Positions 20,677 through 51,680 of a stretch of DNA of 51,739 nucleotides are shown here, piece by piece. Position 1 is the first letter of the stretch; each line of letters opens with the position of its first letter. The stretch spans positions 1 to 51,739 of the forward strand of contig JACQZJ010000001.1 in the NCBI GenBank assembly GCA_016213895.1, written 5' to 3'. Under the pieces are notes generated by a model. It was given only the letters and a program-made list of their open reading frames with translations, had not been told where the DNA came from and made no database searches. This stretch comes from Planctomycetota bacterium (GTDB lineage: Bacteria; Planctomycetota; B15-G4; JADJEK01). The position numbers were made by a program, and so were the translations under genes.

Positions 20677-21900
20677 CTACTCCAGCCGCGCGCGGCGCGG
20701 GACCACGGTGATCCCGCCCGGCGAGCGCACGAACTCCTTCTCGTCCGCCTCGGGATCGCAGCCGATCTCGCGCCCTTCGGGCACCGTGACGTGGCGGTCG
20801 ATGATCACGCGCCGCAGGCGCGCTCCGGCGCCGATGCGCACCCGTCCGAGGAGCAGCGACTGCTCGACCGTGGCGCCCGGTCCCAGGAAGACGTCCGGGC
20901 CGAGCACGCTGTCCGCGACGGTCGCGCCCGCCACGACCGTGCCGTTCGCGATCAGCGAGTCGTACACCTCGGGCCGCCGGCCGCCGGCGGTGCGCAGCTC
21001 GGCCGCGGGCAGGCGCTGGCGCACCGAGTAGAGCGGCCACTTGGGATCGCGCAGGTCGAAGCGCGGGTTCTCCCCGAGCACGTCGCGGTGCGCCTCGTAG
21101 TAGGCGTCGATCGTGCCCACGTCGCGCCAGTAGCCCGGCTGCGCCCCCGAACGGTCGCGGAAGGGGAAGGCGAAGACCTTCATCCCGGTCGCGACCATGT
21201 GCGGCACCACGTCCTTGCCGAAGTCGTGCGAGCTCTCGGTCTTGGCGTCCTGGGCGACCTCGCGCACCAACGTCGTGGTGTCGAACAGATAGATGCCCAT
21301 GCTCGCCAGGGCCACGCCGTCGCGGCCCGGGATGGGCTTGGGCGCGGCGGGCTTTTCCTCGAAGCCGACCACGCGGTAGTCCCGGTCCACCTGCAGCACG
21401 CCCATGCGCCGCGCCTCGCCGAGCGGCACCTCGATGACGCCGATGGTCATCGAGGCCTCCCGGTCGAGGTGGCTGCGCAGCATGTCGCGGTAGTCGAAGC
21501 GGTAGACGTGGTCGCCGGACAGGATGAGCGTGCGCTTCGGCCGGTCGCGCTCAAGCAGGTAGATGTTCTGATAGACGGCGTCCGCAGTGCCGAGGTACCA
21601 GGTGGAGGACATGCGGAACTGCGGCGGCACGGTGTCGATGAACTCGTCCAGCTCCATGGAGAGAAACGAGTAGCCGCTGCGCACGTGGCGCTCGAGCGAG
21701 AGCGAGCGGTACTGGGTGAGCACGTACACGCGCCGCAGTCCGGAATGCACGCAGTTGGTCAGGGTGAAGTCGATGATGCGGTAGTTGCCGGCGAACGGCA
21801 CCGCCGGCTTGGCCCGATCGCGCGTCAGCGGGTAGAGGCGCTCGCCCTGGCCGCCGGCGAGCAGGAAGACCAGGATGTCCTCGGTGATGCCGGTCAGCAT
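20677..21900 (-). CDS. glgC: Glucose-1-phosphate adenylyltransferase
   Basis: 407 residues, full length. Makes ADP-glucose from glucose-1-phosphate and ATP, the committed step of bacterial glycogen synthesis. The nucleotide-binding loop is LLAGGQGERLYPLT (residues 13-26), followed by RAKPAVPFAGNYRIIDFTLTNC. The mid-region GTADAVYQN and SGDHVYRFDY and a C-terminal left-handed beta-helix of hexapeptide repeats (from about 315, SLIANGTVVAGATVADSVLG) are all typical. Its ATG overlaps the stop of the receiver gene by 7 nt. Together with glgA it frames a histidine kinase and a receiver protein, an unusual arrangement. Confidence 0.93.
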   Translation of the reverse strand: MLTGITEDILVFLLAGGQGERLYPLTRDRAKPAVPFAGNYRIIDFTLTNCVHSGLRRVYVLTQYRSLSLERHVRSGYSFLSMELDEFIDTVPPQFRMSSTWYLGTADAVYQNIYLLERDRPKRTLILSGDHVYRFDYRDMLRSHLDREASMTIGVIEVPLGEARRMGVLQVDRDYRVVGFEEKPAAPKPIPGRDGVALASMGIYLFDTTTLVREVAQDAKTESSHDFGKDVVPHMVATGMKVFAFPFRDRSGAQPGYWRDVGTIDAYYEAHRDVLGENPRFDLRDPKWPLYSVRQRLPAAELRTAGGRRPEVYDSLIANGTVVAGATVADSVLGPDVFLGPGATVEQSLLLGRVRIGAGARLRRVIIDRHVTVPEGREIGCDPEADEKEFVRSPGGITVVPRRARLE

Positions 21901-22331
21901 GCGCCGCCGCCCCCGCCCTGCGCCGGCGCCTCCCCGCCCGCGCCGCGGCGGCCTGCGAGCACCTCGGCGATCTTGGCCAGGAGCACGCCGACGTCGGCCG
22001 ACTTGACGATGTAGGCGTCCGCCGACCAGGTCATGAAGTCGTCCTCATAGGTCGAGTAGGCGGTGTTCAGGATCACCGGCAGGGTGCGGTCGTGGTCGAG
22101 GATGCGCCCGAGCGCCTCGATGCCGTCCATGCCCGGCATGCGGATGTCGAGCACGACCAGGTCCGGCTTCTCGCTGCGGACCTTCTCCACCGCCTCCCTG
22201 CCGTCCTCGGCGAGCAGCACCTCGTAGCCCTCCGCCTCCAGCTCGTTCTGATAGAGGAGGCGGATATTGGGCTCGTCATCCGCGATGAGGATGCGCGTGC
22301 GCCTGGCTGCCCCGCTCTGACCGCTGCTCAT
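21894..22331 (-). CDS. Stand-alone response regulator receiver protein
   Basis: 145 residues, a single CheY-like receiver without output domain. Acidic pocket DD at 18-19, phospho-acceptor D62 in LVVLDIRMPGMDG, switch Thr in ILNTAYSTYEDDF and the conserved Lys in AYIVKSADV. Its ATG is inside the stop of the histidine kinase (ATGA, 4-nt overlap) and its own stop overlaps the glgC start, so the cognate kinase is almost certainly the upstream gene. Without an output domain it must act by protein contact, for example on the co-encoded glycogen enzymes or as a relay. The Gly/Ala-rich C-terminal tail is probably disordered. Confidence 0.85.
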   Translation of the reverse strand: MSSGQSGAARRTRILIADDEPNIRLLYQNELEAEGYEVLLAEDGREAVEKVRSEKPDLVVLDIRMPGMDGIEALGRILDHDRTLPVILNTAYSTYEDDFMTWSADAYIVKSADVGVLLAKIAEVLAGRRGAGGEAPAQGGGGGAC

Positions 22332-24580: not shown

Positions 24581-26019
24581 CAGGGCACCATCATCCTCGT
24601 GTAGAGGTCCAGGTACCGCTCGGCGGTGCGGCGCGCGGAGAAGTCGCGCGCCATGCCGCGCCGCATGACCGCGAGGCGCTTGCCGTCCTCGCGGTAGAGG
24701 GCGAGCGCCGAGCGCGCCTTGGCGACCAGCAGCTCGGCGCGCGGCGCGGCGAAGGCGAAGCCGGTGGCGTCGTCCGCCGACTCGTCGTAGTCGGTCACCG
24801 TCTCCGCCAGGCCGCCCACGCGGTGCACGATGGGGATGCTGCCGTAGCGCATGGAGTACATCTGGTTCAGACCGCAGGGCTCGTAGCGGGACGGCATGAG
24901 AAAGAAGTCCGAACCCGCCTCGATCCAATGGGCCAGCTCGTCATCGAAGCCCAGGAACACGGCAAAGCGCTCCGGGTGCGCGCTTGCCAGCTCGCGCAAC
25001 ATGCGATGGTACTTCTCCTGGCCGACGCCGAGGATCGCGAAGCGCAGGTCCAGGCGCGCCAGCGCCGGCGCCGCCGCGGCGAAGATGTCCAGCCCCTTCT
25101 GCTCGGCGAGCCGGCCCACCATGCCCACGAGCGGCGCGCGCGCGCCTTGCGGCAGCCGCGCCCGGCGCAGCAGCTCGCGCCGGCACTTCCACTTGCCGCT
25201 CGGGTCGGCGGCCGAGTAGCGCGCCGGCAGGAGCGGATCGGTGGCCGGGTCCCAGACGGCGGTGTCGATGCCGTTCAGCACGCCGTGGAGCAGCGCGCGG
25301 CGCTCGCGCAGCAGGCCGTCGAGGCCGCAGCCGTGCGCTGGCGTCTGGATCTCCTCGGCGTAGCGCGTGGAAACGGTGGTGAGCAGGTCGGCGAAGTGGA
25401 TGCCGACCTTCAGGAAGTTGGAGCCGCCGTGGAACTCGAGGGGCGACAGGGGGCGGAACCAGTCGCGCGGAAAGCCGACGTCGAACAGCACGCGCGGCGG
25501 GCTGAGCATCTGGTAGGCGAGGTTGTGGATGGTGAGCACGGTCTTCACCGGGCGCGCCGGCGGGACGACCAGCCGCAGGAGCCCGGGCACGAGCGCCGCG
25601 TGACAGTCGTGCACATGCACCACGTCCGGCGGATCGCGCGCGATCAGCCCGGCCACGGCGCGCGCGAAGCAGGCGAACCTCTCCGGGTTGTCAGGGTGGC
25701 CCTCGCCCGTCTCCGGAACGTCGTAGACGCCGTCGCGGTCGAAGGCCCAGGGCGCGTCCACCAGTGTCACGGTGACGCCGTCCGCGCGCACCAGTCGCGC
25801 GACGCCCGCCGCGGCGGCGCGGCCGGCCAGGGGGAAGGCGACGTCCTCGGCCGCGCTCAGGTCGAGGCCAAGGGCGCCCACGCAGCGGTAGCGCGGCAGG
25901 ACCAGCTCGACCTCGCAGCCCAGGGCCGCGAGGTCTCCCGCCAGCGCTCCGGCCACGTCCGCCAAACCGCCGACCTTGACGTACGGAGTCGCCTCCGCCG
26001 CGACCTGCATGATGCGCAT
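24580..26019 (-). CDS. glgA: Glycogen synthase (ADP-glucose type)
   Basis: 479 residues, normal for GlgA. A GT5 glycosyltransferase that extends alpha-1,4-glucan from ADP-glucose. The N-terminal substrate motif KVGGLADV (residues 15-22), VHVHDCHAALVPGLL, the GMVGRLAEQKGLD block of the second Rossmann domain and EPCGLNQMYSMRYGSIPIVHRVGGLAETV-type catalytic region are all present. It is the first gene of the set glgA-kinase-receiver-glgC. A branching enzyme (glgB) is not in the window. About 250 bases separate it from galT upstream, so it probably has its own promoter. ATG at 26019; a second ATG three codons later is possible. Confidence 0.93.
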   Translation of the reverse strand: MRIMQVAAEATPYVKVGGLADVAGALAGDLAALGCEVELVLPRYRCVGALGLDLSAAEDVAFPLAGRAAAAGVARLVRADGVTVTLVDAPWAFDRDGVYDVPETGEGHPDNPERFACFARAVAGLIARDPPDVVHVHDCHAALVPGLLRLVVPPARPVKTVLTIHNLAYQMLSPPRVLFDVGFPRDWFRPLSPLEFHGGSNFLKVGIHFADLLTTVSTRYAEEIQTPAHGCGLDGLLRERRALLHGVLNGIDTAVWDPATDPLLPARYSAADPSGKWKCRRELLRRARLPQGARAPLVGMVGRLAEQKGLDIFAAAAPALARLDLRFAILGVGQEKYHRMLRELASAHPERFAVFLGFDDELAHWIEAGSDFFLMPSRYEPCGLNQMYSMRYGSIPIVHRVGGLAETVTDYDESADDATGFAFAAPRAELLVAKARSALALYREDGKRLAVMRRGMARDFSARRTAERYLDLYTRMMVP

Positions 26020-35314: not shown

Positions 35315-36580
35315 TCACTCATGACGCAAGGCCTCGATCGGGTCGAGGTTGGCCGCCCGCACCGCTGGGTAGAGGCCGAAGACCAGACCGACCGCGAGGC
35401 TGATGCCCGCGGAGAGAACGACGCTGTAGGCGGTCACCACGGTCGGCATGCCGGCGAACAGGGTGATGAGCCAGGGGATGAGCGCGCCCACGCCGATGCC
35501 GATGGCGCCGCCCACGCTCGACAGCACCACCGTCTCGATGAGGAACTGGGAGATGATCTGGCCGCGCTTGGCGCCGATGGCGCGCCGCACGCCGATCTCG
35601 CGCGTGCGCTCCGTCACCGAGGCGAGCATGATGTTCATGATGCCGATGCCGCCGACCAGCAGGCTGATGCCGGCGATGGAGCCGAGCACGATGTTGAAGG
35701 TGCGCTTGGTCGCCTCGGCCGAGCGCAGCAGGGCGAGCGGCACGCGCACCTTGTAATCCATCTTCTTGTGGAAGCGGGCGAGCATCGCCTCGATGCCCGC
35801 CGCCGTCGCCGCGACCTCCTCGGTCGAGCGCACCTGCACGATGATCTGGTGCAGCTCGACGAACTCCTGTTCGCGCGAGCCGGAGGAGCGCCGCACCACG
35901 TAGTCGCCGAACATGCCGCGCGCCACGTGGATGGGAATGTAGGCGTCCACCTCCTCGTCGGGAACCTGCACCCCCTCCGAGCTGACTTCGTTGCGCACGA
36001 TGCCGACCACCTCGAAATAGCCGCCGCCGATGCGCAGCGTCTGCCCGATCGAGTTCTCCGTGGCCAGCAGGCGGCGCGCGCCGTACTCGGTCAGGACCAC
36101 GGCGTTCGTCGAGCCGTGGTCGTCCTCGGCGCCGAGCAGGCGCCCCGCGATCACCTCGCGCCGCACCAGGTCGAACCAGACGGGCGACGTGCCCACCACG
36201 CGCACTTCCAGGGTCCTGTCGCCGAGGCGCCCTTCCTTGCGAACCAGCTTGACCGGCACGGTGCGCTTCACCGCCTCGAAGGTGCGGCCGATGCGGTCCT
36301 CGTCGTCGTAGGTCAGGCCGTAGATGCTGATGCGCGAGCGCACCGACCCGGACTGCACGTCCTCGGTCGCCTTGATCGAGTCCAGGATGATGTTGTCGCT
36401 GCCGAGCTTGCGGATGCGCTCCAACGCCTCGGCGCTCGCCCCCTCCCCCACCGCGAGCATGGCCACCACGCTGCCCACGCCGAAGACGACGCCCAGCGTC
36501 GTCAGGAACGAGCGCAGCTTGTGCAGCAGGAGCGTCTTGATCCCTAGCCTGATGTTGCGCGCGACGCGCGACTGATGCAC
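35315..36580 (-). CDS. MacB-type ABC transporter permease
   Basis: 421 residues. One N-terminal membrane helix (about 21-45, [23 protein letters not shown]), a ~220-residue periplasmic MacB-PCD domain, then an FtsX domain with three helices (about 290-410), including [28 protein letters not shown], the MacB/FtsX signature. It ends DPIEALRHE as usual. Works as a mechanotransmission dimer, driving substrate from periplasm through the outer-membrane channel with the three co-encoded partners. Its start is 4 nt after the ATPase stop. Substrate not deducible. Confidence 0.92.
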
Positions 36581-36584
36581 GCGG

Positions 36585-37322
36585 CTACTCCTCGATGCGG
36601 TCCACGCGGCCGTCGAGCATGTGCACGCGTGCGGCGGCGTACGCGGCGATGTTCGGCTCGTGCGTGACCATGACGATCGTCTTGCCCTGCTCGTTCAGGC
36701 CGCGCAGCAGATCCATGATCTGTACGCCGGTGGCCGAGTCGAGGTTGCCGGTGGGCTCGTCCGCGAGCAACACCTCGGGGTCGTTGGCCAGGGCGCGCGC
36801 CACGGCCACGCGCTGCTGCTGCCCGCCCGAGAGTTGGTTGGGGCGGTGCTCCAGCCGGCCGCCGAGGCCGACGATGCCCGCCAGCTCCTCGGCGCGCTTC
36901 ATGCTCTCCGCGTGGGGCCAGCCCTGGTAGTAGAGCGGCAGCTCGATGTTCTCGCGCACCGAGAGCTGCGCGATCAGGTTGAAGCTCTGGAAGACGAAGC
37001 CGATCTTGCGCAGGCGGATCTCGCTCAGCTGGTCGTCGTCGAGGCGCGACACGTCCTCGCCGGCGATGAAGTAGCTGCCCGACGTGGGACGGTCGAGGCA
37101 GCCGAGCAGGTTGAGCAGCGTGCTCTTGCCCGAGCCGCTCGGTCCCATGATGGCGGTGAAGCTCCCCGCCGCGAACTCGAGGCTCACGCCGGCGAGTGCA
37201 GAGACCTCTGCCTCGCCCATGCGGTAGACCTTGGCGACCTCGCGCAGGGAGACGACCGCGGCCGCGCCCTGGCCGGCCGGCGCCGCGCCGCGCGGGGGCC
37301 TCGCTCCGGGCGGGGCCTTCAT
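36585..37322 (-). CDS. MacB/LolD-type ABC transporter ATPase
   Basis: 245 residues. Walker [10 protein letters not shown] (60-68), Q-loop FQSFNL (111-116), signature LSGGQ (164-168), Walker B LLADEP (185-190) and H-loop VTHEP. The [15 protein letters not shown] start and GNLDSATG are typical of the MacB/LolD/FtsE group. A ~20-residue Ala/Pro-rich N-terminal extension is unusual. Its ATG overlaps the membrane-fusion gene stop (ATGA, 4 nt). Energises the permease encoded just downstream. Confidence 0.93.
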
Positions 37323-39067
37323 CGTTCGCCCTGCGGCGCCTGCTTCTCCCCGGAGCTCGGCCGTTCGCGCCGCGAGCGCTCCCCGCCGCCGCCCTCGCCC
37401 ATGCCGGGCGGCCGGCGGCGCGTGCGCGGCCGCCCTTCCGTCTCGCTCCCCGTCCCCTGCGGCGCGCCCTCCGCGCCTTCGGGGGCGCGCGTGGCGCCCG
37501 CGTCCGGCTGGGCCGGAAGCGGCGCGCCTGGTGCTCCGGTCGGGACGGCCGGCGCCGCCTCCGGCTGAAGCGCCCTGGACGCGGCCGCCTGCAGCGGAGG
37601 CGTGAGCAGGACGACCTCGCCCGCCTCGAGCCCGCGCTTGACGTGCACCATTTGCGCGTTGTCCAGCCCGATCTCCACGTCGCGCTGCAGGAAGCCCTCG
37701 GCGCCGGCCACGAACACCGCCGGCTGGCTGCCCACGCGCACCACGGCCTGGATCGGGACGTAGACCACGTTTTGCAGCCGCTCGACGAAGATCTCGGCGC
37801 GGCAGTTCATCCCGGTGCGCACCTCGGAGATCTCCCCCTCCAGGTGGATCTCCGTGGGATAGACCTTGAGGTCCGGGTTCATCCACACGCTCTGGGCGTC
37901 GGGCAGCGGCGCGATCTTGGCGACCCTGCCCTTGAATTCGCGGCCGGGCAAGGCGTCGACGGTGACGTTCACCTCCTGGCCCACGCGCACCTTGTCCAGG
38001 CTGGTTTCGCGGATCTTGACCACCGCCATCATGGAGTTGGTGGTCGGCAGGTGGATCAGCTCCTCGCGCTCGCGCACCGTGCCGCCCTCGTGCAGCGGCT
38101 CGTCGTCGCCGCGCCAGCCCTGGCGACCGGTCGTGGCGTACACGACCATGCCCGCGCTCGGCGCCACGATGCGCGCCTTGGCGATCTGGTCGTCGAGTTT
38201 CCGCAGCTGGTCCACCTGGCGGTCGCGCTCCGCCTCGCGCGCGCGCAGCTGCGCCTCGGCCTCGACGATGTCGGCGGCCGCCTTGCACTTGGTGCGCTCG
38301 AGCGCCATCTCGTTCTGCAGGATGGCGCTCTTGAGCTCGTCGAGCTGGCGCTTGTGCGTGAACTCGTCGAGCAGCTCCAGCGCCGACACGGCCAGCTCGT
38401 AGTCCAGGCGCGCGCGGTTCTCGGACAGGCGGTCGCGGTCGAGTTCCGTCTGGGAGATGTACTTCTCCTGGAAGAGCTTCTCCGACCAGCGCAGCGTCTC
38501 CGCCGCGTTCTTCAGCTCCTCCTGGGCGAGGGTGATCTTCGACTCCGCTTCCTTCCTCTGGCGCGGGAACTCGCCGTTCTCGTACTGCGTCAGATCCTCC
38601 TTGGCGAAGCGAAACTTCAGCTCCGCATCGGCCACGTCGCTGGCGGCCTGGCTCTTCACCACGGCCAGGTTCTCGCGCGCGCTCACGAAGGCGGCCTCGG
38701 CGCTCTGCACGGCGATGTCCCGGTCGACGCGCTTGTCCTGCAGGCCGCTGGCGTCGAGCTCCACGAGCAGGGCCCCGGCTTCGACCATCTTCCCCTCCTC
38801 CTCCAGGAAAATGACCGTGGTCTGGCCTTCGACCTCGCTCTTGATGACGACCTGGTCGCGCGCCTGGATGGTCCCGGCCTCGGACACGCTGATGACGAGC
38901 GCGCCGCGCCGCGCCGCGGAGGTGGATTCCTGCTCCGCCTTGCCGCCGCCGGCCAGGTCGGTGCCGAACACCACGCCGGCGATCACCGCGCCGGCCACGA
39001 CGAGGCCGCCCGCCACGAGGATGATCAGCCGGCGCGGCGCCGCCGCGCTGTCAGGGCGTGTCTTCAT
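37319..39067 (-). CDS. Periplasmic membrane fusion protein (HlyD/MacA family)
   Basis: 582 residues, longer than the usual ~380. One membrane helix (about 13-35), then a lipoyl/biotinyl half-domain (VISVSEAGTIQARDQVVIKSEV), a long helical hairpin (about 110-300), the second half-lipoyl (KARIVAPSAGMVVY), a beta-barrel and a membrane-proximal domain. Links the inner-membrane pump to the outer-membrane channel. The last ~70 residues are Pro/Gly/Arg-rich, low-complexity and probably disordered. It overlaps the outer-membrane factor gene by 17 nt and the ATPase gene by 4 nt. Confidence 0.9.
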   Translation of the reverse strand: MKTRPDSAAAPRRLIILVAGGLVVAGAVIAGVVFGTDLAGGGKAEQESTSAARRGALVISVSEAGTIQARDQVVIKSEVEGQTTVIFLEEEGKMVEAGALLVELDASGLQDKRVDRDIAVQSAEAAFVSARENLAVVKSQAASDVADAELKFRFAKEDLTQYENGEFPRQRKEAESKITLAQEELKNAAETLRWSEKLFQEKYISQTELDRDRLSENRARLDYELAVSALELLDEFTHKRQLDELKSAILQNEMALERTKCKAAADIVEAEAQLRAREAERDRQVDQLRKLDDQIAKARIVAPSAGMVVYATTGRQGWRGDDEPLHEGGTVREREELIHLPTTNSMMAVVKIRETSLDKVRVGQEVNVTVDALPGREFKGRVAKIAPLPDAQSVWMNPDLKVYPTEIHLEGEISEVRTGMNCRAEIFVERLQNVVYVPIQAVVRVGSQPAVFVAGAEGFLQRDVEIGLDNAQMVHVKRGLEAGEVVLLTPPLQAAASRALQPEAAPAVPTGAPGAPLPAQPDAGATRAPEGAEGAPQGTGSETEGRPRTRRRPPGMGEGGGGERSRRERPSSGEKQAPQGER

Positions 39068-40973
39068 GCGTCAACTCCCGCGGGTCGAACTCCTCCCACA
39101 GTCCGTCCTCGCTGACCTGGAGCACTCCCAGGTCGCGCTGCAGCTCGTACTCAGCGATTCTATACGCGATGAGCGCGGCGGTGAGGTCATTCTGCGCGGC
39201 GACGAGATCCTCCTGGGCCTCGAGCAGGTCGCGCGTCTGCGCCCGGCCGGCCTCGAGGAACGAGCGCGTGCTGTCCACGCGGCGCATGGCCACGGCCACC
39301 GCGCTCGTCTGGATCAGCTGCTCCTCCCGGGCCAAGAGGAGGCTGCGCAGCTCCTCCCGGACCTCCTGCTTGATCTGGTCCTCCAGCTCCTGGTAGGCGC
39401 GCACCGTGCGCTCGAGGAGGATCCAGCTGTCGCGGTAGGCGTTGCGCTCCGCGGTGCGCTCGAGCGGCAGGTCGATGGTCAAGAGGGCCTCGTAGGTGGC
39501 GTCGTCGTAGCGCAGGTCGGTCGAGTCCGGGAGGGCGGCGGAGGAGAGAGTGCGCCGCTCGCCAAAGCTGCCGCTGCCAAGCAGCGTGACCTCGGCGCGC
39601 AGGGCGTCGGCCGCGACCACCACGGCGCGCTGGGCGTCGAAGATCCCCCCCTCGGCCACGGCCAGGTCGAGCCGGTTCCCGAGCGCCACCTCGACCGCGA
39701 TCCTCTGGTCCAGCTCGAAGGGACCGGGGTGGCCCCGGCCGGGCGGATCCAGCTCGACGGGCGCGTCCGCGGCGACCTCCGCGGCGGCGCCCGCCTCCGG
39801 CTGCCGCGGCCCGCCCTCGGCGCCAAGGACCGCGCGCACCGACTCCCCGAGGCGCCCGAGCTCAGCGCGCTCGAGCGCCACCTCGGCGTCGGGCGGCAGG
39901 CCCAGCACGATGCGGAACGCGTCGAGCTGGCGCTCGTAGGCGTTGATCGCCCTGATCCAGCCGTCGCGCGCCTGCAGCTCGTTCTGCACCGCTTGGTCGA
40001 CCTCGATCTCCGAGCGCCGGCCTGCGTCCGCCTGCCTCCTGAGCTGGCGCACGGACTGCATCAGGCTGCGGTAGTTCTGCTCGGCGTTGTTCACCGCGTC
40101 GATCTGCTGCAGCACCTGCAGGTAGCGCGTGGCGATGTCGACCGCGAACGTCTTCTTGAAGCGCTCGAATCGCAGGATCTGGTAGAGCGTGTTGCGCTCG
40201 GCCTGGATGAGCGGCTCGGCGACGATGTGGCGGCCGGCGCCGCGCATCAGCGGGATGGTGATCGAGGCGTCCCCGAAGAGCGCGAGCGACCGCGGCTTCT
40301 TGCCGGTCACCACGTCCGGCGTCAGGAGCTTCACCACGTCCAGGCCGATCTGGGTGGAGATGGACACGCCGTTCTGGAAGACGCGGCCGGCCGAGAGCGT
40401 GCCGGTGCTCTCGATCCCCGTGGTCCTGGACTTGGGATCGGACGTCAGCGTGCTGTCGAGCGAGCCCTCGGCCGCGCCGGTGAAGAGGGTGCGGAACTCG
40501 TTCCTCGCCAGGTCGAGGTCGAGCGCGGCGCGGAACACCTCCTCCTTCTGTTCCTGGTAGTCGCGGCTGTTGCGCGCCGCGACGCGCAGCGCGTCCACGA
40601 GCTTCAGCTCCACGCTCCCCGCCGAGGCGCCGTGGGCCGTGCCGGCCACGCCGAGGTCGAGGTCGCCGCTGCCAGACGGGCCGGGATCGGCGGGCCAGTA
40701 GTCCACGGGCTCGAGCGCCGCGACGCCAAGGGAGCCCGAGGAGGCGAAAGGGAGGTTCTGGTCGAGCAGCAGGCGGCGCCGCAGGGTCTCGGAGGGGCGC
40801 TCGATGGTGAACGCCTCGCTCCGGTTCAGGGCCAGGCGGCGCGTGGTCTCGATGATCTCGGCCGCCGCCGCGTCGGCGCTCTCGCGCTGCAATTCGGCCG
40901 TGCTGCACCCGGGCGGCGCAGCGGCCGCGGCGAGGAGGATGACCTTCGCGGCGATCCGTCCCAGGCCTTTCAT
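39051..40973 (-). CDS. Outer-membrane efflux protein (TolC/OMF family) lipoprotein
   Basis: 640 residues, longer than TolC. N-terminal signal with APPGC (C23), so probably lipidated, as in many OMFs. Two repeats of the long-helix/beta-strand pattern: KLVDALRVAARNSRDYQEQKE and the second with LAVAEGGIFDAQRAVVVAADALR. The C-terminal half contains FLEAGRAQTRDLLEAQEDL and NDLTAALIAYRIAEYEL, the consensus end of OMF proteins. An inserted Ala/Glu/Pro-rich stretch lies around residues 385-410. First gene of the four-gene efflux operon. ATG at 40971-40973; the longer upstream frame lacks the signal peptide. Confidence 0.9.
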   Translation of the reverse strand: MKGLGRIAAKVILLAAAAAPPGCSTAELQRESADAAAAEIIETTRRLALNRSEAFTIERPSETLRRRLLLDQNLPFASSGSLGVAALEPVDYWPADPGPSGSGDLDLGVAGTAHGASAGSVELKLVDALRVAARNSRDYQEQKEEVFRAALDLDLARNEFRTLFTGAAEGSLDSTLTSDPKSRTTGIESTGTLSAGRVFQNGVSISTQIGLDVVKLLTPDVVTGKKPRSLALFGDASITIPLMRGAGRHIVAEPLIQAERNTLYQILRFERFKKTFAVDIATRYLQVLQQIDAVNNAEQNYRSLMQSVRQLRRQADAGRRSEIEVDQAVQNELQARDGWIRAINAYERQLDAFRIVLGLPPDAEVALERAELGRLGESVRAVLGAEGGPRQPEAGAAAEVAADAPVELDPPGRGHPGPFELDQRIAVEVALGNRLDLAVAEGGIFDAQRAVVVAADALRAEVTLLGSGSFGERRTLSSAALPDSTDLRYDDATYEALLTIDLPLERTAERNAYRDSWILLERTVRAYQELEDQIKQEVREELRSLLLAREEQLIQTSAVAVAMRRVDSTRSFLEAGRAQTRDLLEAQEDLVAAQNDLTAALIAYRIAEYELQRDLGVLQVSEDGLWEEFDPRELTHEDTP

Positions 40974-41142
40974 GCTCCAGGTCTCCGCTGCCGTCGCTGC
41001 GTGTCTGCCAAGAGGATCTGCCGGCGCGCGCCGGCGCACGCGTTGCGCTAGATACGCAGCCCTGCCCCGCGAGCGCGGGCGGGCCTTGAAAAGATAACGA
41101 GTTCCCGCGACGAAGCGTATGCTCGCCCGCCTGGAGCGAACG

Positions 41143-41976
41143 ATGAAGCCGCGGTGTTTCAGCGTGGCGCTCGCCGCCCTCCTGTGCGGCGGCTGCGCCG
41201 GCGACCGCGCCAGCCTCGACCTGGCCGTGGCCGGCACGGGCATCGGCTTCGGCAACTCGCGGGCGCTGAACGGCGTGCGCTGCAACTTCAAGGACGAGGC
41301 GGTCGAGCGCGTGAACGGCCTGAACGTCACGCTCTGGGACCCGGGGAAGAACCCGGACCTGGTGCTCCGCGGCGTCGCGCTCGGCCTGGCGCGCACCGAC
41401 GCGCGCGAGGCGTGGGGCCTCTCCCTCGGCAGCATCGCCGGCGGCGAGCGCCTCTACGGCATCAACCTCGGCCTGCTCGCCGCGCGCGGCCGCGCGACGG
41501 TGCGCGGCGTGAACGCCAGCGCGTTCACCACCTGGGGCGGCGAGGAGCTGTCCGGCATCAACGCCGGCCTGATGGTGAGCGGCGGCGGCGCGATCAACGG
41601 ACTGACGCTGGGCCTGCTCTACATCAGCCCGGAGCCGGTGACCGACATCCTCGAGCCGCACCGCGGCTGGATGAAGGGCATCAACCTGAGCGGTCTGGTG
41701 ATCGACTACCCCGGCGCCCTTGGCCTGACCGCGGCCGGGATCGTACGGGCGCGCGACGTGCGCGGGCTGTGCGGCGCCTGGTTCATGTGCGACGTGCGCG
41801 AGGACGCGCGCGGTGTGTGCATCGCGCCCTTCACCTTCTCCAAGCGGCTCGCGGGCGTGCAGCTCGGCCTCTTGAACCACGTCGCGTCGCACCCGCATCC
41901 GTTCAAGTGGCTGCCCGGGATCAACATCGGGTTCGGCGGGCCGCCGGGCGAAGAGGAGGCGGCCGCGGGCGGCTGA
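41143..41976 (+). CDS. Putative lipoprotein with G-I/V-N surface repeats
   Basis: 277 residues. MKPRCFSVALAALLCGGC gives a lipoprotein signal with C18, lipobox slightly atypical. The body contains repeats of about 20-25 residues of the form GINLGLLA, GVNASAF, GINAGLMV, GLTLGLLY, GINLSGLV, GVQLGLLN and GINIGFG. The pattern is like the LA_2272-type surface repeat proteins of Leptospira and others; no biochemical role is known to me. The ATG at 41143 follows GGAG by seven bases and places the signal peptide at the start; the upstream ATG at 41119 does not. Its TGA overlaps the presumed CTG start of the next gene. Confidence 0.65.
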   Translation: MKPRCFSVALAALLCGGCAGDRASLDLAVAGTGIGFGNSRALNGVRCNFKDEAVERVNGLNVTLWDPGKNPDLVLRGVALGLARTDAREAWGLSLGSIAGGERLYGINLGLLAARGRATVRGVNASAFTTWGGEELSGINAGLMVSGGGAINGLTLGLLYISPEPVTDILEPHRGWMKGINLSGLVIDYPGALGLTAAGIVRARDVRGLCGAWFMCDVREDARGVCIAPFTFSKRLAGVQLGLLNHVASHPHPFKWLPGINIGFGGPPGEEEAAAGG

Positions 41977-45268: not shown

Positions 45269-46045
45269 ATGAGCCACATCATCTCCATCCACTCGTACCG
45301 CGGCGGCACCGGCAAGAGCAACCTCACCGCCAACCTGGCCTGGCTCGCCGCCCGGGAAGGACGCCGCGTGGCGCTGCTCGACACGGACCTGGCCTCGCCC
45401 GGCGTGCACCTCGTCCTCGGCCTGCAGAAGGAGCGCATGACCTTCACGCTCTCCGACTTCGTGTTCGGCCGCTGCGACCTGGAGGAGGCGGCCTACGACA
45501 TGACCGCCCAGACCGGCATCGCGGGAGGCGGCGCGCTCTACCTCTTGCCCTCGTCCATGAACGTCGAGGCCATCACCCGGGTGGTGGCCGAGGGCTACGA
45601 CGTCGGCAAGCTGAACGAGCACTTCGCCGTGCTCGGCGAGACGCTCGGGCTCGACCTGCTCTTCATCGACACGCATCCGGGCCTGAACCGCGAGACCATG
45701 CTCACCACGGCGGTCTCCGACACGCTGGTGATCGTGGTCCGGCCCGATCGGCAGGACTACCACGGCACAGCGGTCATGGTCGAGGTCGCCGCGCGCCTGC
45801 GCGTGCCGCGCCTGCTGCTGCTCGCCAACAAGGTGCCGCGCCGCCTGGACGCGCCCGCCGTGGCCGCGCGCCTCGAGCAGGCCTTCGGCCACGAGGTCCT
45901 GGGAGTCCTGCCTCTCGAGGAGGACATGGCCTGCCTGGGCAGCGAGGGGTTGTTCGCGCGCCTCTTCCCCGAGCACCCGCTCACCGCGCAGCTCATGCAG
46001 GTGGCCGAGCGGCTGCTGCCCAAGGAACCGGGGACGCGGACTTGA
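45269..46045 (+). CDS. MinD/ParA-like deviant Walker ATPase
   Basis: 258 residues. Deviant Walker A YRGGTGKSN (10-18) with the signature lysine, LLDTDLASPGVH as switch I, and LLFIDTHPGLNRE as the Walker B/DTxPG region. Such ATPases dimerise on ATP and position or regulate partner machinery at membranes or on DNA. No amphipathic MinD-type C-terminal helix is obvious, and there is no MinE, MinC or ParB gene beside it. First gene of a six-gene run whose others look metabolic. ATG at 45269; its TGA overlaps the TTG start of the next gene (TTGA). Confidence 0.85.
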   Translation: MSHIISIHSYRGGTGKSNLTANLAWLAAREGRRVALLDTDLASPGVHLVLGLQKERMTFTLSDFVFGRCDLEEAAYDMTAQTGIAGGGALYLLPSSMNVEAITRVVAEGYDVGKLNEHFAVLGETLGLDLLFIDTHPGLNRETMLTTAVSDTLVIVVRPDRQDYHGTAVMVEVAARLRVPRLLLLANKVPRRLDAPAVAARLEQAFGHEVLGVLPLEEDMACLGSEGLFARLFPEHPLTAQLMQVAERLLPKEPGTRT

Positions 46046-46905
46046 CGGCCGACACGGCGCTCCTCCCGCCCGGCGCCACCTGCCGGGGCGAGATCATGGC
46101 CTTTTCCGGCAGCGGCGGCCGCGTGCTCCGCTGCCGCGTGGTGCGGGCGCGCCAGGAGAAGCGCCTCTTCCTCTACTTCCACGGCATCGAGAGCCACGGC
46201 GGCTGGTTCCTGCCGGCCGCCGCCCGCTTCGCCGAACGCGGCGTCAGCACCTGCCTGATGGACCGGCGCGGCTCGGGCCTGAACCGCGAAGAGGAACCGG
46301 GCGACGCGCCCTCGGCCGAGGTCCTGCTCGAGGACGTGCGCCGGTTGCGACGCGCGCTCGGCGATCCGCCGCTCAGCCTGGTCGGCCTTTCCTGGGGGGG
46401 CAAGCTCGCGCTCGCCGCCGCGCTGGATCGGCCGCGCGCGGTGAAGAGCGTGATCCTGATCACGCCCGGCCTGAAGCCGCGCGTCGACCTCGGCGCGGCG
46501 GACAAGCTGCGCCTGCTGCTCAGCCTGTGCGCCGGCGGCCGCCGCCTGCTCCCGGTCCCGATCGAGCCGGAGATGTTTACGGTCGAGCCAGCCCTGCTCG
46601 ACTACATCCGCAACGACCCGTGGCGCCTGCACCGCGTCACGGCGCGCTTCCTGCTGGCCGGCGTCCGCCTCGACCGGCAGATCGCCCGCGCGCTCCACTC
46701 TCTCGCCGCGCCGGTCTTGCTCTTCCTGGCAACGCGCGACCGCATCATCGACAATGCGCGCACCGAGGCCTTGCTCGCGGCTCTCCCGCCGGGGCGCCTG
46801 GCAATGCGCGTTTACGACGCCACGCATTCCATCCAACTCGAGCAGACCGAGCGCATGGTCGAGGACGTGGTCTCGTTTCTTGACGGCCTGGAGGAAGCGC
46901 CCTGA
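46042..46905 (+). CDS. Alpha/beta hydrolase (first of two in the operon)
   Basis: 287 residues from a TTG at 46042-46044 within the stop of the MinD-like gene. Serine hydrolase fold: HGIESHGGW oxyanion region, DRRGSGL, nucleophile S117 in GLSWGG, acid D in LATRDRIID and His in DATHSIQLE. Resembles monoacylglycerol lipase/serine aminopeptidase S33 types. It shares HGIxSHxGW and DRRGxGL blocks with the hydrolase at 49747-50700, so the two are paralogues. Its stop overlaps the CTG start of the enolase-superfamily gene. Substrate unknown; ester or amide. Confidence 0.8.
   Translation: MTADTALLPPGATCRGEIMAFSGSGGRVLRCRVVRARQEKRLFLYFHGIESHGGWFLPAAARFAERGVSTCLMDRRGSGLNREEEPGDAPSAEVLLEDVRRLRRALGDPPLSLVGLSWGGKLALAAALDRPRAVKSVILITPGLKPRVDLGAADKLRLLLSLCAGGRRLLPVPIEPEMFTVEPALLDYIRNDPWRLHRVTARFLLAGVRLDRQIARALHSLAAPVLLFLATRDRIIDNARTEALLAALPPGRLAMRVYDATHSIQLEQTERMVEDVVSFLDGLEEAP
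46902..46905 (+). promoter_or_regulatory. CTGA stop-start overlap, probable CTG initiation
   Basis: The TGA of the hydrolase (46903-46905) overlaps a CTG (46902-46904) that opens exactly at the conserved N-terminus of the enolase-superfamily enzyme (next residues KIAQLEVLELEIPFRF). The first ordinary start in frame is a GTG at 46995, which would delete the first 31 residues including a conserved strand. Confidence 0.6.
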
Positions 46906-48023
46906 AGATCGCCCAACTGGAAGTCCTCGAGCTGGAGATCCCCTTCCGGTTCACGTTCCGCCACGCGCTCTCCGCGAGGTCGTGCGGCGACAGCGTGCTG
47001 GTGCGCGCGACCGGCGCTGACGGGCTTCTGGGCTACGGCGAGTGCGCACCGCGCAGCTACGTGACCGGCGAAACCCCGGAAACGGCGCGCGCCGACCTGG
47101 CGGAGCGCCTCCTGCCCGCCTTCCTGGGCGCCGCCTTCGCCACGTTCGGCGAGGCGGCCGCGGCCCTCGCCGAGACGCTCGATCGCCTGCCGCGCGCGCG
47201 GCACGCCGCGTTCTGCGCTCTCGAGCTGGCCGTCCTCGACCTGGCCGGAAAGACCTTCGGCGTCTCCGCCGGCGAGGTTCTGGGACCCGTGCTGCAGGAC
47301 GAGGTGCGCTACAGCGGCGTGGTCTCGGCCGGCGGCAAGGAGGAGGCGGCGCGCGCGCTCCTGGCGATCGCGGCCTTCGGCTTCCAGGCGGTCAAGGTGA
47401 AGGTCGGGCAGGACGCGGCAACGGACCGCGCCGTGCTCGAGGCCGCGCGCTCTCTCCTCGGCGAGCGCTGCTCGCTGCGCGTCGACGCCAACTGCGCGTG
47501 GTCGAGCGAGGAGGCCTTGCTGCGCATCGAGGACCTCGCGCCCTTCCGTCTGGACGGCGTGGAGCAGCCGCTCGCCGCGGGCGACATCGCGGGCCTGGCC
47601 TGGCTCACGGAGCGCAGCCCCGTGCCGATCATCGCCGACGAGTCGCTCGCCTCGCTGGAGGACGCGCGCCGCCTGGTCGAAGCGGGCGCCTGCCACCACT
47701 TCAACGTCCGCGTGTCCAAGTGCGGCGGCCTGATCAATGCGGCGCGCATCCGCGACCTGGGCGCGCGCTCCGGCGTCTCCTGCCAGCTCGGCGCGCAGGT
47801 GGGCGAGACCGCGCTGCTCTCGGCCGCGGGCCGCCATTTCGCCACGCGCAGCGCGGGCGTCCTCTTCCTGGAGGGGTCGTACGGCACGCTCCTCCTCGAG
47901 GAGGACATCGCGCGCGAGGACATCACCATCGGCAGGGGCGGGCTGGCCCGTTCCCTGCCGGGACCCGGGCTCGGCGTCGAGGTCGATCCCGGCCGTCTGG
48001 CCCGCTTCCTGAAAGCGAGGTGA
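46902..48023 (+). CDS. Enolase-superfamily enzyme (dipeptide epimerase/cycloisomerase-like)
   Basis: 373 residues with a CTG start. N-terminal capping domain (1-120) and a TIM barrel. The full muconate-lactonizing-enzyme catalytic set is present: KxK at 165/167 (VKVKVG), metal ligands D195 (RVDANCAW), E221 (DGVEQPL) and D246 (ADESL), and K273 (RVSKCGG). The enzyme abstracts an alpha proton from a carboxylate via Mg2+. The DxD motif that dipeptide epimerases use to bind the substrate amine is not seen in the late barrel strand, where LEGSYG stands, so a cycloisomerase, racemase or novel N-acyl-amino-acid activity is equally possible. GAQVGETALLSAAGRHFA is a family-typical block. It lies between a hydrolase and GH3. 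Confidence 0.85.
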   Translation: MKIAQLEVLELEIPFRFTFRHALSARSCGDSVLVRATGADGLLGYGECAPRSYVTGETPETARADLAERLLPAFLGAAFATFGEAAAALAETLDRLPRARHAAFCALELAVLDLAGKTFGVSAGEVLGPVLQDEVRYSGVVSAGGKEEAARALLAIAAFGFQAVKVKVGQDAATDRAVLEAARSLLGERCSLRVDANCAWSSEEALLRIEDLAPFRLDGVEQPLAAGDIAGLAWLTERSPVPIIADESLASLEDARRLVEAGACHHFNVRVSKCGGLINAARIRDLGARSGVSCQLGAQVGETALLSAAGRHFATRSAGVLFLEGSYGTLLLEEDIAREDITIGRGGLARSLPGPGLGVEVDPGRLARFLKAR

Positions 48024-48028
48024 CAGGG

Positions 48029-49750
48029 ATGACGCGTCTCGCTTCGTTCTTCATCCGCCTCATGGGGCGCGCGGCGGCGCGCAGGTTCGAGGAGGCCACG
48101 CGCCGCCCGGTCGAGGTCCAGGAGCAGAAGCTCAAGGAGATCCTGGCGCGGAACCAGGACACCGAGTACGGCCGCGAGCACGGCTTCGCCGCGGTGCGGT
48201 GCCTGGCGGACTACCGGAAGGCCGCGCCGATCGTCTCCTACGAGGACATCAAGGAGCGCATGGAGCGCGTCACGCGCGGCGCGAAGAACGTCTTCACCGC
48301 CGAGGACCCGGTGATGTTCGCGAAGACGTCCGGCACGAGCGGCGACGCCAAGTACATCCCGGTGACGCCGACCTGCCAGGGGCGCGACCACGCCGGTCAG
48401 ATGCGCACCTGGTTCTATCACGCGATCAGCGACCACCCGCGCCTCTTCCACGGCAAGGCGCTCAGCCTGGTGTCGCCCGCGATCGAGGGCTACACGCCAA
48501 GCGGCATCCCGTTCGGGTCGACCAGCGGCCTGATCTACAAGAACATGCCGGCCGTGGTGCGGGGCACCTACGCCGTCCCCTACGAGGTGTTCGAGATCCA
48601 GGACTACGAGGCCAAGTACTACGTGCTCATGCGCCTCGGCCTGCAGATGAACGTCACCTTCATGGCCACGGCCAATCCGTCGTCCGTGGTCAAGATGTGC
48701 GAGCTGGCGAACGAGCACGCCGACAGTCTGCTGGCGGACCTCGCCCGCGGCACGCTGTGCGCCGACCTGGCCGTGCCCGCCCCGATCCGCGCCCAGGTGG
48801 AGGCGCTCTGCCGGGCGGATCCTTCCCTGGCGGCGCGGCTGGAGAAGGCGCGCGCGCGGCGCGGCGGCCGGCTTCTACCCGCCGACTACTGGCCCAACCT
48901 GCAGCTCATCGGCTGCTGGAAGGGCGGCACGGTGGGAACCTATCTGCAGCGCTTCCCGGCCTGGTTCTGGCCGGAAGAGGGCGGGCGCGTCATCCCCATC
49001 CGCGACTGGGGCTATCTCTCTTCCGAGGCGCGCGGCAGCATCCCGCTCTCCGACACGGGCGCAGGCGGAGTGCTCACCGTGGGCACGAACGTCTACGAGT
49101 TCGTGCCCGTGGAGGAACTCGAGGCCGCGCCCGAACAGCCCGATTCGTGGACCTTCCTCGGCGCGGACGAGATCGAGCTGGGCCGCGATTACTACGTCTT
49201 CTTCACCACCACCGGCGGCCTCTATCGCTACGACATCAACGACGTGGTGGGAGTGGTCGGCATGCACCACCGCACGCCGGTGATCGCGTTCAAGCGCAAG
49301 GGACGCGGCGCCACGAGCATCACCGGCGAGAAGGTGACCGTGACCCAGGTGATCGAGGCCTTCCAGCGCGCCGCGGCCGAGGCCGGGGTCGAGATCGACC
49401 ACTACAAGGCCGAGGCGGACGTGCAGCGCGCGCGCTACCTGTTCATGGCGGAGTCGTCCGCGGGGATCCCGCCCGAGAAGCGCCAGCCGCTGCTCCAGGC
49501 CCTGGAGCGCAGCCTGGCGCGTCTCAACATCGAGTACGAAGGCAAGCGCAAGAGCCTGCGCCTCGGTCCGCCGCAGCTCCTGGTCATGAGGCCCGGCTGG
49601 TACGATCGCGAGAAGAAGTCCCTCATCGCCCAGGGCAAGCGGCTGTTCCAGGCCAAGACGATCCGCCTCTCCGACCACCGCGCGGACCTGAGCGACGAGG
49701 TGGAGGCGATCGTCGAGTGGCGCCAGGACGCGCAGCAGGAGGCGACATGA
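48029..49750 (+). CDS. GH3-family acyl-acid amido synthetase-like protein
   Basis: 573 residues, full length. ANL-superfamily adenylating enzyme: plant GH3 proteins activate acids such as jasmonate or indole-acetate with ATP and join them to amino acids. ATP-binding motif TSGTSGDAK (100-108), a central STSGLIYKNMP block, YRYDINDVVGVVG as the second ATP motif, and a C-terminal domain containing KRKGRGATSITGEKV. Bacterial members mostly lack tested substrates. The ATG at 48029 follows GAGGTGACAGGG; its stop overlaps the next gene (ATGA). In this operon the acid and amine partners may be produced or recycled by the enolase-type enzyme and hydrolases. Confidence 0.88.
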   Translation: MTRLASFFIRLMGRAAARRFEEATRRPVEVQEQKLKEILARNQDTEYGREHGFAAVRCLADYRKAAPIVSYEDIKERMERVTRGAKNVFTAEDPVMFAKTSGTSGDAKYIPVTPTCQGRDHAGQMRTWFYHAISDHPRLFHGKALSLVSPAIEGYTPSGIPFGSTSGLIYKNMPAVVRGTYAVPYEVFEIQDYEAKYYVLMRLGLQMNVTFMATANPSSVVKMCELANEHADSLLADLARGTLCADLAVPAPIRAQVEALCRADPSLAARLEKARARRGGRLLPADYWPNLQLIGCWKGGTVGTYLQRFPAWFWPEEGGRVIPIRDWGYLSSEARGSIPLSDTGAGGVLTVGTNVYEFVPVEELEAAPEQPDSWTFLGADEIELGRDYYVFFTTTGGLYRYDINDVVGVVGMHHRTPVIAFKRKGRGATSITGEKVTVTQVIEAFQRAAAEAGVEIDHYKAEADVQRARYLFMAESSAGIPPEKRQPLLQALERSLARLNIEYEGKRKSLRLGPPQLLVMRPGWYDREKKSLIAQGKRLFQAKTIRLSDHRADLSDEVEAIVEWRQDAQQEAT

Positions 49751-50700
49751 AGCGCGCGGCGCAGGCGGGCGGCGCGCGCGCGCCGACTTTCACCATCGCC
49801 GCGCGCGACGGCCTGCAGCTGACGGTCGGGGCCTACCCGGCGGACGGCGGCGGCCCGATCCTGGTGCTCTGCCACGGCATCGCCAGCCACATGGGCTGGT
49901 ACGGCAGGCTCGCGCTCGCCCTCGCCGAGCGCGGCGTCGCCGTTTACACGCCCGATCGTCGCGGCGCGGGCCTCTCCGAGGGCACGCGCGCGCACATGAC
50001 GAGCTGGCGCGTGGTGGTGGACGATCTGCACCACGTGGCCGAGGAGGCGGCGCGCCGCCACCCGGGACGCCCCCTGCACTTCCTCGGCATCTCGCTCGGC
50101 GCGGTCTTCTGCGCGGCCGCGGCTCTCGAGCGACCGGACGCCTACCGCAGCGTGGTCGCCTTCTCTCCGGGGTTCGCCTCGCGCATCCCCATCCCGTTCA
50201 TCCGCCGGCTGCGCGTGCTCAGGCGCTCGCTCACCGAGCCGGAGAAGCTCTACGACCTGCCGTTCGGCGTGCGCGACCTCACCGACCGCGAGGATTGGCG
50301 CGCGGTGCTCTCGCGGGACGAGCTGAGCGCGTCGCAGGCGAGCGCGCGCTTCCTGGTCGAGATGTTCCGCCTGCAGCGCTTCATGAAGAAGCAGATCGCC
50401 TGCCTGCGCGTGCCCATGCTCGTGCTCCTCGGCGGCGGCGACGCGATCATCGACGGGGAGGCGGTGATCGAGATGATGGCGCGCGTCGAGCGCGCGGCGG
50501 TGCGTATCGAGGTGTTCGACGGCGTGCCGCACATCATCCCGGCGTCCTTGCCCCTGGCACGGCTCGCCGATCGGCTGTGCTCGTGGCTCGGCAAGGAGCA
50601 CGCGGGCGCCGCGGCCGGACGGGATCTGCAGCGCATCCCGCGCGAGGCGTTCGCGCCCGAGGACCTGCCCCCGCCGCCCGAGGTGTCCTCGCGCAGATGA
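49747..50700 (+). CDS. Alpha/beta hydrolase (second of two in the operon)
   Basis: 317 residues. Oxyanion and lid region HGIASHMGWYG, DRRGAGLSEG, nucleophile S116 in GISLGA, acid in LLGGGDAIID, His in GVPHIIP. This is the monoglyceride-lipase-like S33 type. Paralogue of the hydrolase at 46042-46905. The tail of about 35 residues is Pro/Arg-rich. Its ATG overlaps the GH3 stop (ATGA) and its stop overlaps the patatin start (ATGA), so it is tightly coupled. Confidence 0.85.
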   Translation: MKRAAQAGGARAPTFTIAARDGLQLTVGAYPADGGGPILVLCHGIASHMGWYGRLALALAERGVAVYTPDRRGAGLSEGTRAHMTSWRVVVDDLHHVAEEAARRHPGRPLHFLGISLGAVFCAAAALERPDAYRSVVAFSPGFASRIPIPFIRRLRVLRRSLTEPEKLYDLPFGVRDLTDREDWRAVLSRDELSASQASARFLVEMFRLQRFMKKQIACLRVPMLVLLGGGDAIIDGEAVIEMMARVERAAVRIEVFDGVPHIIPASLPLARLADRLCSWLGKEHAGAAAGRDLQRIPREAFAPEDLPPPPEVSSRR

Positions 50701-51680
50701 GCGCTCCGTGCCAGGACATCCTCGGGCGGCGCGGGGAGGCGGACGCGCCGCTCGAGCGCGCCCGCTACGAGACCCTGCTGCGCATGGCGGCGGATCCCAA
50801 GCACCGCCTGGTCGTGTCGCTTGGCGGCGGGTCGCTGCCGGGCGTGTGCGGCAACCTCGCGCTCCTCTCCATCCTCGAGGAACTCCACCTGCGCGGCCGC
50901 GTGGAAGAGGTCTGGGGCACGAGCGCCGGCGCCGCGGTCGGCGGACCCTGGGCGGCGGGCGCGAGTGCGGCCGAGATTCACGCCCTGGCCAGGAAGCTCG
51001 ACCGCCCGGGCACGATCGACGTGCCCTGGCTCAAGCTGGCCCTCGCCTTCCTGAAGAAGCCGTTCGGCGGCACCCTGCCCGACGGGCTGGTGAAGGGCGA
51101 GAAGATCGCCGCCGTGGTGCGGGCCGCTCTCAAAGTGGAGAGCTTCGAGCAGTGCGCCATCCCGTTCCGCTGCATCGCCTGCACGGACGACGGCTACGCG
51201 CGGCGCCGGGTCTTTCGCCGCGGCCCGCTCTTCCCGGCCATCTTCGCCAGCATGACCCTGCCCGGCATCGTCATGCCGCCCGCGCTCGCGGCCGGCCAGG
51301 AGAGCGGCTACTACGACGGCGGGCTGGTGGAGAAGACCCCGCTGCTCTCGCCCATTGCCGAGCACGGCCGCAGCGGCGACGAGCGCCGCCTGCTGGTGAT
51401 CGCCACGCACTACGGCAACGACAACCGCCGGCAGCGCGAGAGCGGCTTCCTCAACCGCTTCCTGCAGAGCATGTTCGCGCTCGAGGATCTGGCCTGGTCC
51501 TATCAGCTCGCCGAGGCGCGTGCGCGCCGCGACGTGGCCTTGATCCTCCTCGACCCGCGCATCGACGATCCGGAGCTGTTCAACTTCGCCAACCTGGAGC
51601 GCAACTACGTGATCGCGCGCCAGCAGTTCCGCGAGGCGCTCGAGGACGCGCGCATCGGGCTGACGTTCGGGAGGGAGTAG
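50697..51680 (+). CDS. Patatin-like phospholipase
   Basis: 327 residues. GGGSLPG glycine-rich oxyanion hole (43-49), nucleophile S76 in GTSAG (74-78) and the catalytic D207 in YDGG. Together these form the Ser-Asp dyad of patatin lipases, which hydrolyse membrane lipids or acyl esters. No signal peptide, so cytoplasmic or membrane-associated. Last gene of the operon seen; the window ends 59 bases later. It adds a fourth acyl/amide-handling enzyme to the set. Confidence 0.88.
   Translation: MSAPCQDILGRRGEADAPLERARYETLLRMAADPKHRLVVSLGGGSLPGVCGNLALLSILEELHLRGRVEEVWGTSAGAAVGGPWAAGASAAEIHALARKLDRPGTIDVPWLKLALAFLKKPFGGTLPDGLVKGEKIAAVVRAALKVESFEQCAIPFRCIACTDDGYARRRVFRRGPLFPAIFASMTLPGIVMPPALAAGQESGYYDGGLVEKTPLLSPIAEHGRSGDERRLLVIATHYGNDNRRQRESGFLNRFLQSMFALEDLAWSYQLAEARARRDVALILLDPRIDDPELFNFANLERNYVIARQQFREALEDARIGLTFGRE

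Follow-up and report, generated by a model that had tools for sequence, protein, structure and literature searches.

What does a planctomycete make, or break down, with an operon in which an acyl-acid amido synthetase of the GH3 family is coupled to an enolase-superfamily enzyme, to lipases and to a MinD-like ATPase? The question is raised by a stretch of 51,739 nucleotides (nt), hereafter the window, which is an entire contig of a planctomycete genome assembly of 5.5 Mb and has about 71% G+C across its length. Six intact genes follow one another on its + strand at 45269-51680, in the order M (the ATPase), A (an alpha/beta hydrolase), E (the enolase-superfamily enzyme), GH3 (or G), B (a second alpha/beta hydrolase) and P (a patatin-like lipase). 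Their distribution in the phylum indicates that GH3 and E very probably serve a common pathway, and the reading that we favour, held tentatively, is that the operon would produce an N-acyl-amino-acid lipid. The preliminary description of this locus had the gene set, the common strand, the overlaps and the 5-nt gap exactly right, as reading frames and Pfam domains confirm:

45269..46045, + strand: MinD/ParA-like ATPase M, 258 residues, ATG start (Pfam ParA 1e-14, CbiA 5e-13)
46042..46905, + strand: alpha/beta hydrolase A of the monoglyceride-lipase type, 287 residues, TTG start (Pfam Hydrolase_4 2.5e-33)
46902..48023, + strand: enolase-superfamily enzyme E of the muconate-lactonising subgroup, 373 residues, CTG start (Pfam MR_MLE_C 3e-46, plus MR_MLE_N)
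48024..48028, + strand: gap of 5 nt between E and GH3, the sole non-overlapping junction of the operon
48029..49750, + strand: GH3 acyl-acid amido synthetase, 573 residues, ATG start (Pfam GH3 N-terminal domain 1.4e-74, middle and C-terminal domains)
49747..50700, + strand: alpha/beta hydrolase B of the monoglyceride-lipase type, 317 residues, ATG start (Pfam Hydrolase_4 1.5e-44)
50697..51680, + strand: patatin-like lipase P, 327 residues, ATG start (Pfam Patatin 1.6e-15)

The junctions read, in order, TTGA, CTGA, the 5-nt gap, ATGA and ATGA, the four overlaps being of 4 nt each. The operon probably starts at M, because 580 nt separate this gene from the end (44688) of the upstream gene, which is by inspection of the major facilitator superfamily type. 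On the side of P the contig ends 59 nt past the patatin stop, and the view of the operon in its own genome is limited there to those 59 nt. By sequence, the catalytic motifs of the operon enzymes are intact.

The pathway put forward in the preliminary description leaned on the expectation that these genes keep company in related genomes rather than lying scattered, and they do keep company. Homologues were searched for with GH3 and their neighbourhoods compared in 392 Planctomycetota genomes, to which all distribution figures given here refer. The same six genes, likewise in this order, on one strand and coupled, are found in four other genera, in genomes G012 (L048, one and the same contig as L021), G105 (L049), G189 (L050) and G163 (L051). 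A genome of the window's own genus, G001 (L047), carries the last five operon genes, with A cut by the contig end; compared with this genome, the five comparable genes show dN/dS values of about 0.12-0.33. With the window included, the six-gene operon spans five genera, three families and two classes. Patatin, taken as a marker, has relatives (E-value <=1e-20) in 6 of the 392 genomes, all of them within the six-gene operon; these are 3 of the 14 and 3 of the 12 genomes of the two classes, and the operon is present in each. In the four full relatives, all junctions are compatible with overlaps or with gaps of <=10 nt, and the junction between E and GH3 is there 0 nt or a 1-nt overlap, against 5 nt in the window. 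The six-gene arrangement is thus more than chance. Outside the window's genus the operon proteins are about 45-70% identical, and because the six genes stay coupled at such divergence across two classes, the unit is old.

The flanks of the operon are not conserved, those of G012 being unlike those of the other operon genomes, and the unit is therefore taken to be these six genes. A DUF445 gene is added downstream in both L050 and L051. The three operons of family f10 (L049-L051) share an upstream gene without Pfam match, directly 5' of the MinD-like gene, whose products are 540-650 residues long and 26-49% alike:

L051:3290-5227, + strand: upstream frame without Pfam match in an f10 operon, with relatives in L049 and L050

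The association between GH3 and E extends well beyond the operon. GH3 occurs in 74 of the 392 genomes and E in 44, and at the thresholds used 43 of these 44 also have GH3 (hypergeometric 5e-36 at genome level, ignoring relatedness). All 14 families with E are found among the 24 with GH3, of about 99 (5e-11, the family count being approximate). E lies <=5 kb from GH3 in 13 genomes and in several layouts. Besides M-A-E-G-B-P, the layouts comprise E-G (L062), G-E (L068), A-G-E (L079), a cluster of ketosynthase (KS) and acyl carrier protein (ACP) genes that includes G and, at some distance from it, E-A (L061, L071), and a polyketide synthase (PKS) gene next to G with A and E on the opposite strand (L076). 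Elsewhere a long chromosomal distance separates E from GH3, or the two are on separate contigs, and A adjoins E in several families where GH3 is not alongside. Because E tracks GH3 so closely and repeatedly lies near it, their genomic distribution suggests that the two very probably share one pathway. The core consists of GH3, E and often A; M, B and P are clade-specific additions.

The GH3 protein has the domains and nucleotide motifs of its family. Its N-terminal, central and C-terminal domains exceed the Pfam cut-offs (PF03321, PF23571, PF23572), plant GH3 structures align to residues 18-546, and the gene is single-copy in its own genome. The nucleotide motifs TSGTSGDAKYI (48326-48358), YLSSE (49013-49027) and GLYRYDINDVVG (49217-49252) are intact and conserved in the four full relatives. 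Among the numerous bacterial GH3s, the only one for which we found a demonstrated function in the literature is OlsH of the planctomycete Singulisphaera acidiphila, which converts free fatty acid, with ATP and Mg, into N-acyl ornithine; OlsI, an alpha/beta hydrolase, then acts on N-acyl ornithine as an O-acyltransferase and yields ornithine lipid (PMC12493201, 2025). OlsH was inactive in living Escherichia coli, which the authors put down to a shortage of free fatty acid (PMC12493201). In the literature searched, no relevant paper on gene clusters of bacterial GH3s other than OlsH came up.

OlsH (NF052613) is the single NCBIfam match of the operon GH3, which reaches 116 bits (1.6e-33) versus a cut-off of 620. 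A GH3 tree of 49 rows was built, in which S. acidiphila OlsH itself was left out and no OlsH-like row passes the OlsH cut-off. There, a branch of their own (100/100) unites the OlsH-like GH3s of the phylum. The six operon GH3s fall into one clade (100/98), and in its closest outgroups, L062 and L068, E is again adjacent to GH3. Given this score and this separate branch, the operon GH3 is, as judged from its sequence, not OlsH. More distant GH3 genes of the phylum sit in clusters with ACP, KS and dehydratase (DH) genes (L061, L071) or with a type I PKS (L076), near an LpxL-like acyltransferase and a glycosyltransferase (L056), or near an MMPL exporter (L076, L083-L085), and these surroundings support a lipid setting for GH3.

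Other neighbourhoods of GH3 deserve mention in their own right. The fatty-acid-type cluster at L061:2052-15134 (+ strand), also found in L071, comprises an ACP, two KS and FabA-like dehydratases together with GH3, DUF1571, E and A, to which L061 adds an aminotransferase, a ketoreductase and a DUF362/Fe-S gene; it has the look of a lipid or polyene cluster not described before. GH3 is flanked in L082 and L075 by a GNAT-type protein and a phosphatidylglycerol-lysyltransferase-like protein, possibly another amino-lipid arrangement. In family f34, a protein of about 1000 residues without Pfam match is encoded directly 5' of GH3 (L069:5690-8716, + strand, with relatives in L060 and L066).

E starts at a CTG codon, where homology also starts, and no in-frame ATG, GTG or TTG lies ahead of residue 32. 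Its catalytic set comprises KxK (within 47391-47408), the metal ligands Asp (47478-47495), Glu (47556-47573) and Asp (47631-47648), and a second Lys (47706-47729), and is kept throughout a 15-member family alignment. The closest solved relatives over the full length are 1jpm, an L-Ala-D/L-Glu epimerase, 3jva, a dipeptide epimerase, and 2p88, probably an N-succinyl-Arg/Lys racemase. In dipeptide epimerases, an intact DxD motif at the barrel end binds the free alpha-ammonium group. This motif is absent from E and from all 15 aligned family members; the equivalent site reads LFLEGSYG (47862-47885) in the window and xxEGS in most members, a pairing that hinges on one gap. Its absence is what an N-acylated substrate would permit. 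Two other segments, R-H-A and PRxYVTGET, are strongly kept. E falls below every curated NCBIfam equivalog cut-off, its best match being a cycloisomerase subfamily (168 bits versus 335). As a first guess, E may epimerise an N-acyl amino acid. We found no paper describing an enolase-type enzyme of this kind as a partner of GH3.

A and B are paralogues, 30% identical, and B matches monoglyceride lipase structures at 1e-16. The nucleophile motif of A is GLSWGG (46384-46401), with the Asp in DRIID (46738-46752) and the His in DATHS (46816-46830); the corresponding sites of B are GISLG (50086-50100), DAIID (50440-50454) and VPHII (50524-50538). Against the OlsI model (NF052614, cut-off 385 bits) A scores 35.5 bits over 42 residues, and B has no match. 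P, whose closest match is the PlpD patatin domain (1e-14), carries its GxSxG nucleophile as GTSAG (50916-50930) and a DGG dyad within 51315-51329. The preliminary description regarded all three as enzymes that cut esters or amides, which is too narrow, since OlsI illustrates that such hydrolases can be O-acyltransferases.

M has the P-loop RGGTGKS (45299-45319), in which Arg replaces the signature Lys of ParA/MinD proteins (KGGxGKT/S), a substitution conserved in its orthologues and in nine paralogues. Its nearest solved relatives are site-determining proteins of the FleN type and MinD. The nine relatives elsewhere in the phylum, with about 47-51% identity, adjoin glutaminase-like genes and mostly also an FHA-domain gene. 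These associations, together with the altered signature residue, leave the earlier proposal that the ATPase organises the pathway at the membrane unsupported. The trio of an RGGTGKS MinD-like gene, a glutaminase-like gene and usually an FHA gene lies apart from the GH3 operon in L110-L118 (about 8200-11200 in each). A defence-system reading was rejected, as it rests on one weak match of the MinD-like protein.

How could these enzymes work together? By analogy with OlsH and OlsI, we tentatively favour the view that the operon uses the GH3 route to make an N-acyl-amino-acid ('amino') lipid. The first step would fall to P, together with A or B, and would free a fatty acid from a membrane lipid. 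GH3 would then adenylate this acid with ATP and couple it to the amino group of an amino acid or amine, according to the chemistry of the GH3 family and of OlsH. E would next act on the carboxylate of the product. A 1,1-proton transfer at the alpha carbon is the most likely reaction and would yield an epimerised N-acyl amino acid, cyclisation or elimination being alternatives. A and/or B would add a second acyl chain by OlsI-like O-acylation or else trim the product, and the MinD-like ATPase would have an accessory role. Lipases within the operon fit with the scarcity of free fatty acid invoked for the inactivity of OlsH in E. coli, and the window's own genome yielded no N-acyltransferase of the OlsB type. 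The acyl-amide pathway imagined in the preliminary description is partly supported, in that one conserved unit is centred on GH3 and E and is consistent with acyl-amide chemistry; its substrates and the order of its reactions, like the reaction of E and the role of the ATPase, are what we infer.

On a wider scale, GH3 and E could be central to a pathway that has gone unrecognised, extends through the planctomycete phylum and leads to a new class of amino-acid lipid or acyl-amide. The six-gene operon would be its simplest self-contained form, and the amino acid is possibly D- or otherwise rearranged; we offer this with some reserve. A second, separate branch of GH3 with a fixed set of partners gives the search for a new lipid a definite starting point, and the linkage names E as the enzyme to be assayed along with it. 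Should E indeed work on N-acyl amino acids that GH3 has formed, the enolase superfamily would gain a new role in lipid biosynthesis.

Several observations weigh against this scheme. Four genomes with a close GH3 (49-54%), G050/G149 and G020/G120, keep GH3 and B alone adjacent, so that E is not always needed beside GH3. At the threshold used, 31 of the 74 genomes with GH3 have no E, and most f26 genomes have E distant from GH3. The lipases could equally break down the product. Finally, in other families A is fused to, or lies near, a ketopantoate-reductase-like (PanE/ApbA) protein. The fusion is found in two families, and L076 has an unfused PanE/ApbA gene near A and E, about 3 kb from the latter:

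L108:3475-5313, - strand: A-PanE/ApbA fusion directly upstream of E
L102:2825-4684, - strand: A-PanE/ApbA fusion directly upstream of E

This association suggests that the A-E pair handles hydroxy acids or keto acids, a chemistry which the scheme leaves unexplained. It also feeds the alternative that best withstands the evidence, in which E precedes GH3: A and E, elsewhere with the ketopantoate-reductase-like enzyme, would build or rearrange a hydroxy- or cyclic acid that GH3 then amidates, giving a small amide or acyl-amide and no epimerised lipid. The gene order A-E-G, the A-E neighbours in families without GH3 alongside and the cycloisomerase subfamily as best, albeit sub-threshold, match of E point the same way as the fusions. 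We nevertheless consider it unlikely, for the six-gene form lacks a keto-acid reductase, the best solved relatives of E are epimerases and racemases, and GH3 adjoins fatty-acid or PKS genes in other families.

Plant GH3s conjugate acids to inactivate them, and three of the six genes have hydrolase folds, which invites a catabolic or salvage interpretation: the lipases would degrade exogenous or membrane lipid, E, which resembles N-acyl amino acid racemases, would racemise the released N-acyl amino acid, and GH3 would re-conjugate or detoxify the acid, much as in the N-succinyl amino acid racemase pathway from D- to L-amino acids. This seems distinctly improbable to us when GH3 spends ATP to build amide bonds, related GH3 genes reside in biosynthetic fatty-acid synthase or PKS clusters, some with exporters, the hydrolase fold can itself be biosynthetic, as in OlsI, and neither a transporter nor a deacylase is among the six genes.

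Two further readings have little to recommend them. An ornithine-lipid operon proper, with GH3 as a diverged OlsH and A or B as OlsI, would explain why OlsH is the best and sole NCBIfam match of GH3, and would suit the shared phylum, the alpha/beta hydrolase partners and the genome's lack of an OlsB-type gene. It is at odds with the low OlsH score and the separate, fully supported OlsH-like branch; A is no closer to OlsI than to other hydrolases, B does not match it at all, OlsG is absent from the six genes, and E, M and P are foreign to the described OlsH/OlsI operon. Alternatively, the GH3-B and A-E pairs may be the only functional units and the six-gene order a cassette of independently acting lipid-active genes that has spread. 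The isolated GH3-B pairs, the A-E pairs without adjacent GH3 and the other partners of the MinD-like relatives would all follow from this, but hardly the coupling of six genes across two classes at their present divergence, nor the co-occurrence of E and GH3 even where they are unlinked; we give it equally low credence. A menaquinone-type set, with E as MenC (o-succinylbenzoate synthase), MenH-like hydrolases and GH3 replacing the MenE ligase, is suggested by weak model matches of E to MenC and of A to MenH and is excluded, since MenD was not found in the genome, the MqnA/MqnD family of the futalosine pathway is present twice and E is far under the MenC cut-offs. The stieleriacine/N-acyl tyrosine pathway was likewise rejected, the 2025 paper giving NasY, a cyclase and a nitroreductase and mentioning neither GH3 nor enolase.

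Elsewhere in the window, an alpha-2-macroglobulin-like protein of 2034 residues is encoded at 6568-12669 (+ strand). The region 20680-26019 (- strand) encodes a nucleotidyltransferase with a GlmU-like C-terminal domain, a PAS/GAF histidine kinase and a starch-synthase-type glycosyltransferase, the kinase lying in the middle. A tripartite efflux set at 35318-41435 (- strand) is composed of a MacB/FtsX-type permease, an HlyD-type fusion protein and an outer-membrane efflux protein.

How does the operon compare with known systems? The aryl-polyene-like fatty-acid or polyketide clusters with export and acyltransferase genes, which house distant GH3s of the phylum and, in L061, L071 and L076, also E and A, differ from the six-gene form, which has no KS, ACP, DH or exporter of its own. 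Plant GH3s (JAR1, GH3.6 and others) are of the same family along nearly the whole protein and have the same three nucleotide motifs, but they are distant in sequence, and the window GH3 stands in a bacterial operon. Dipeptide epimerases and N-acyl amino acid racemases (1jpm, 3jva, 2p88) resemble E along its full length and in the KxK-D-E-D-K set, whereas E has xxEGS in place of DxD, possesses R-H-A and PRxYVTGET and misses the equivalog cut-offs. The nearest precedent is OlsH/OlsI, already described as a pathway to an N-acyl amino acid lipid that combines a GH3 with an alpha/beta hydrolase (PMC12493201), so that the preliminary statement of knowing no described system with this gene set needs amending. 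Both systems belong to the same phylum, join a GH3 and an alpha/beta hydrolase in one operon and have the GH3 nucleotide motifs, and in both an amide bond would be expected to form from free acid, ATP and amino acid. The window GH3 differs in its separate branch, far under the OlsH cut-off, and its operon lacks OlsG and adds an enolase-superfamily enzyme, a second hydrolase, a patatin and a MinD-like ATPase. The six-gene operon would extend the GH3 route to amino lipids by E, an enzyme conserved as the partner of GH3.

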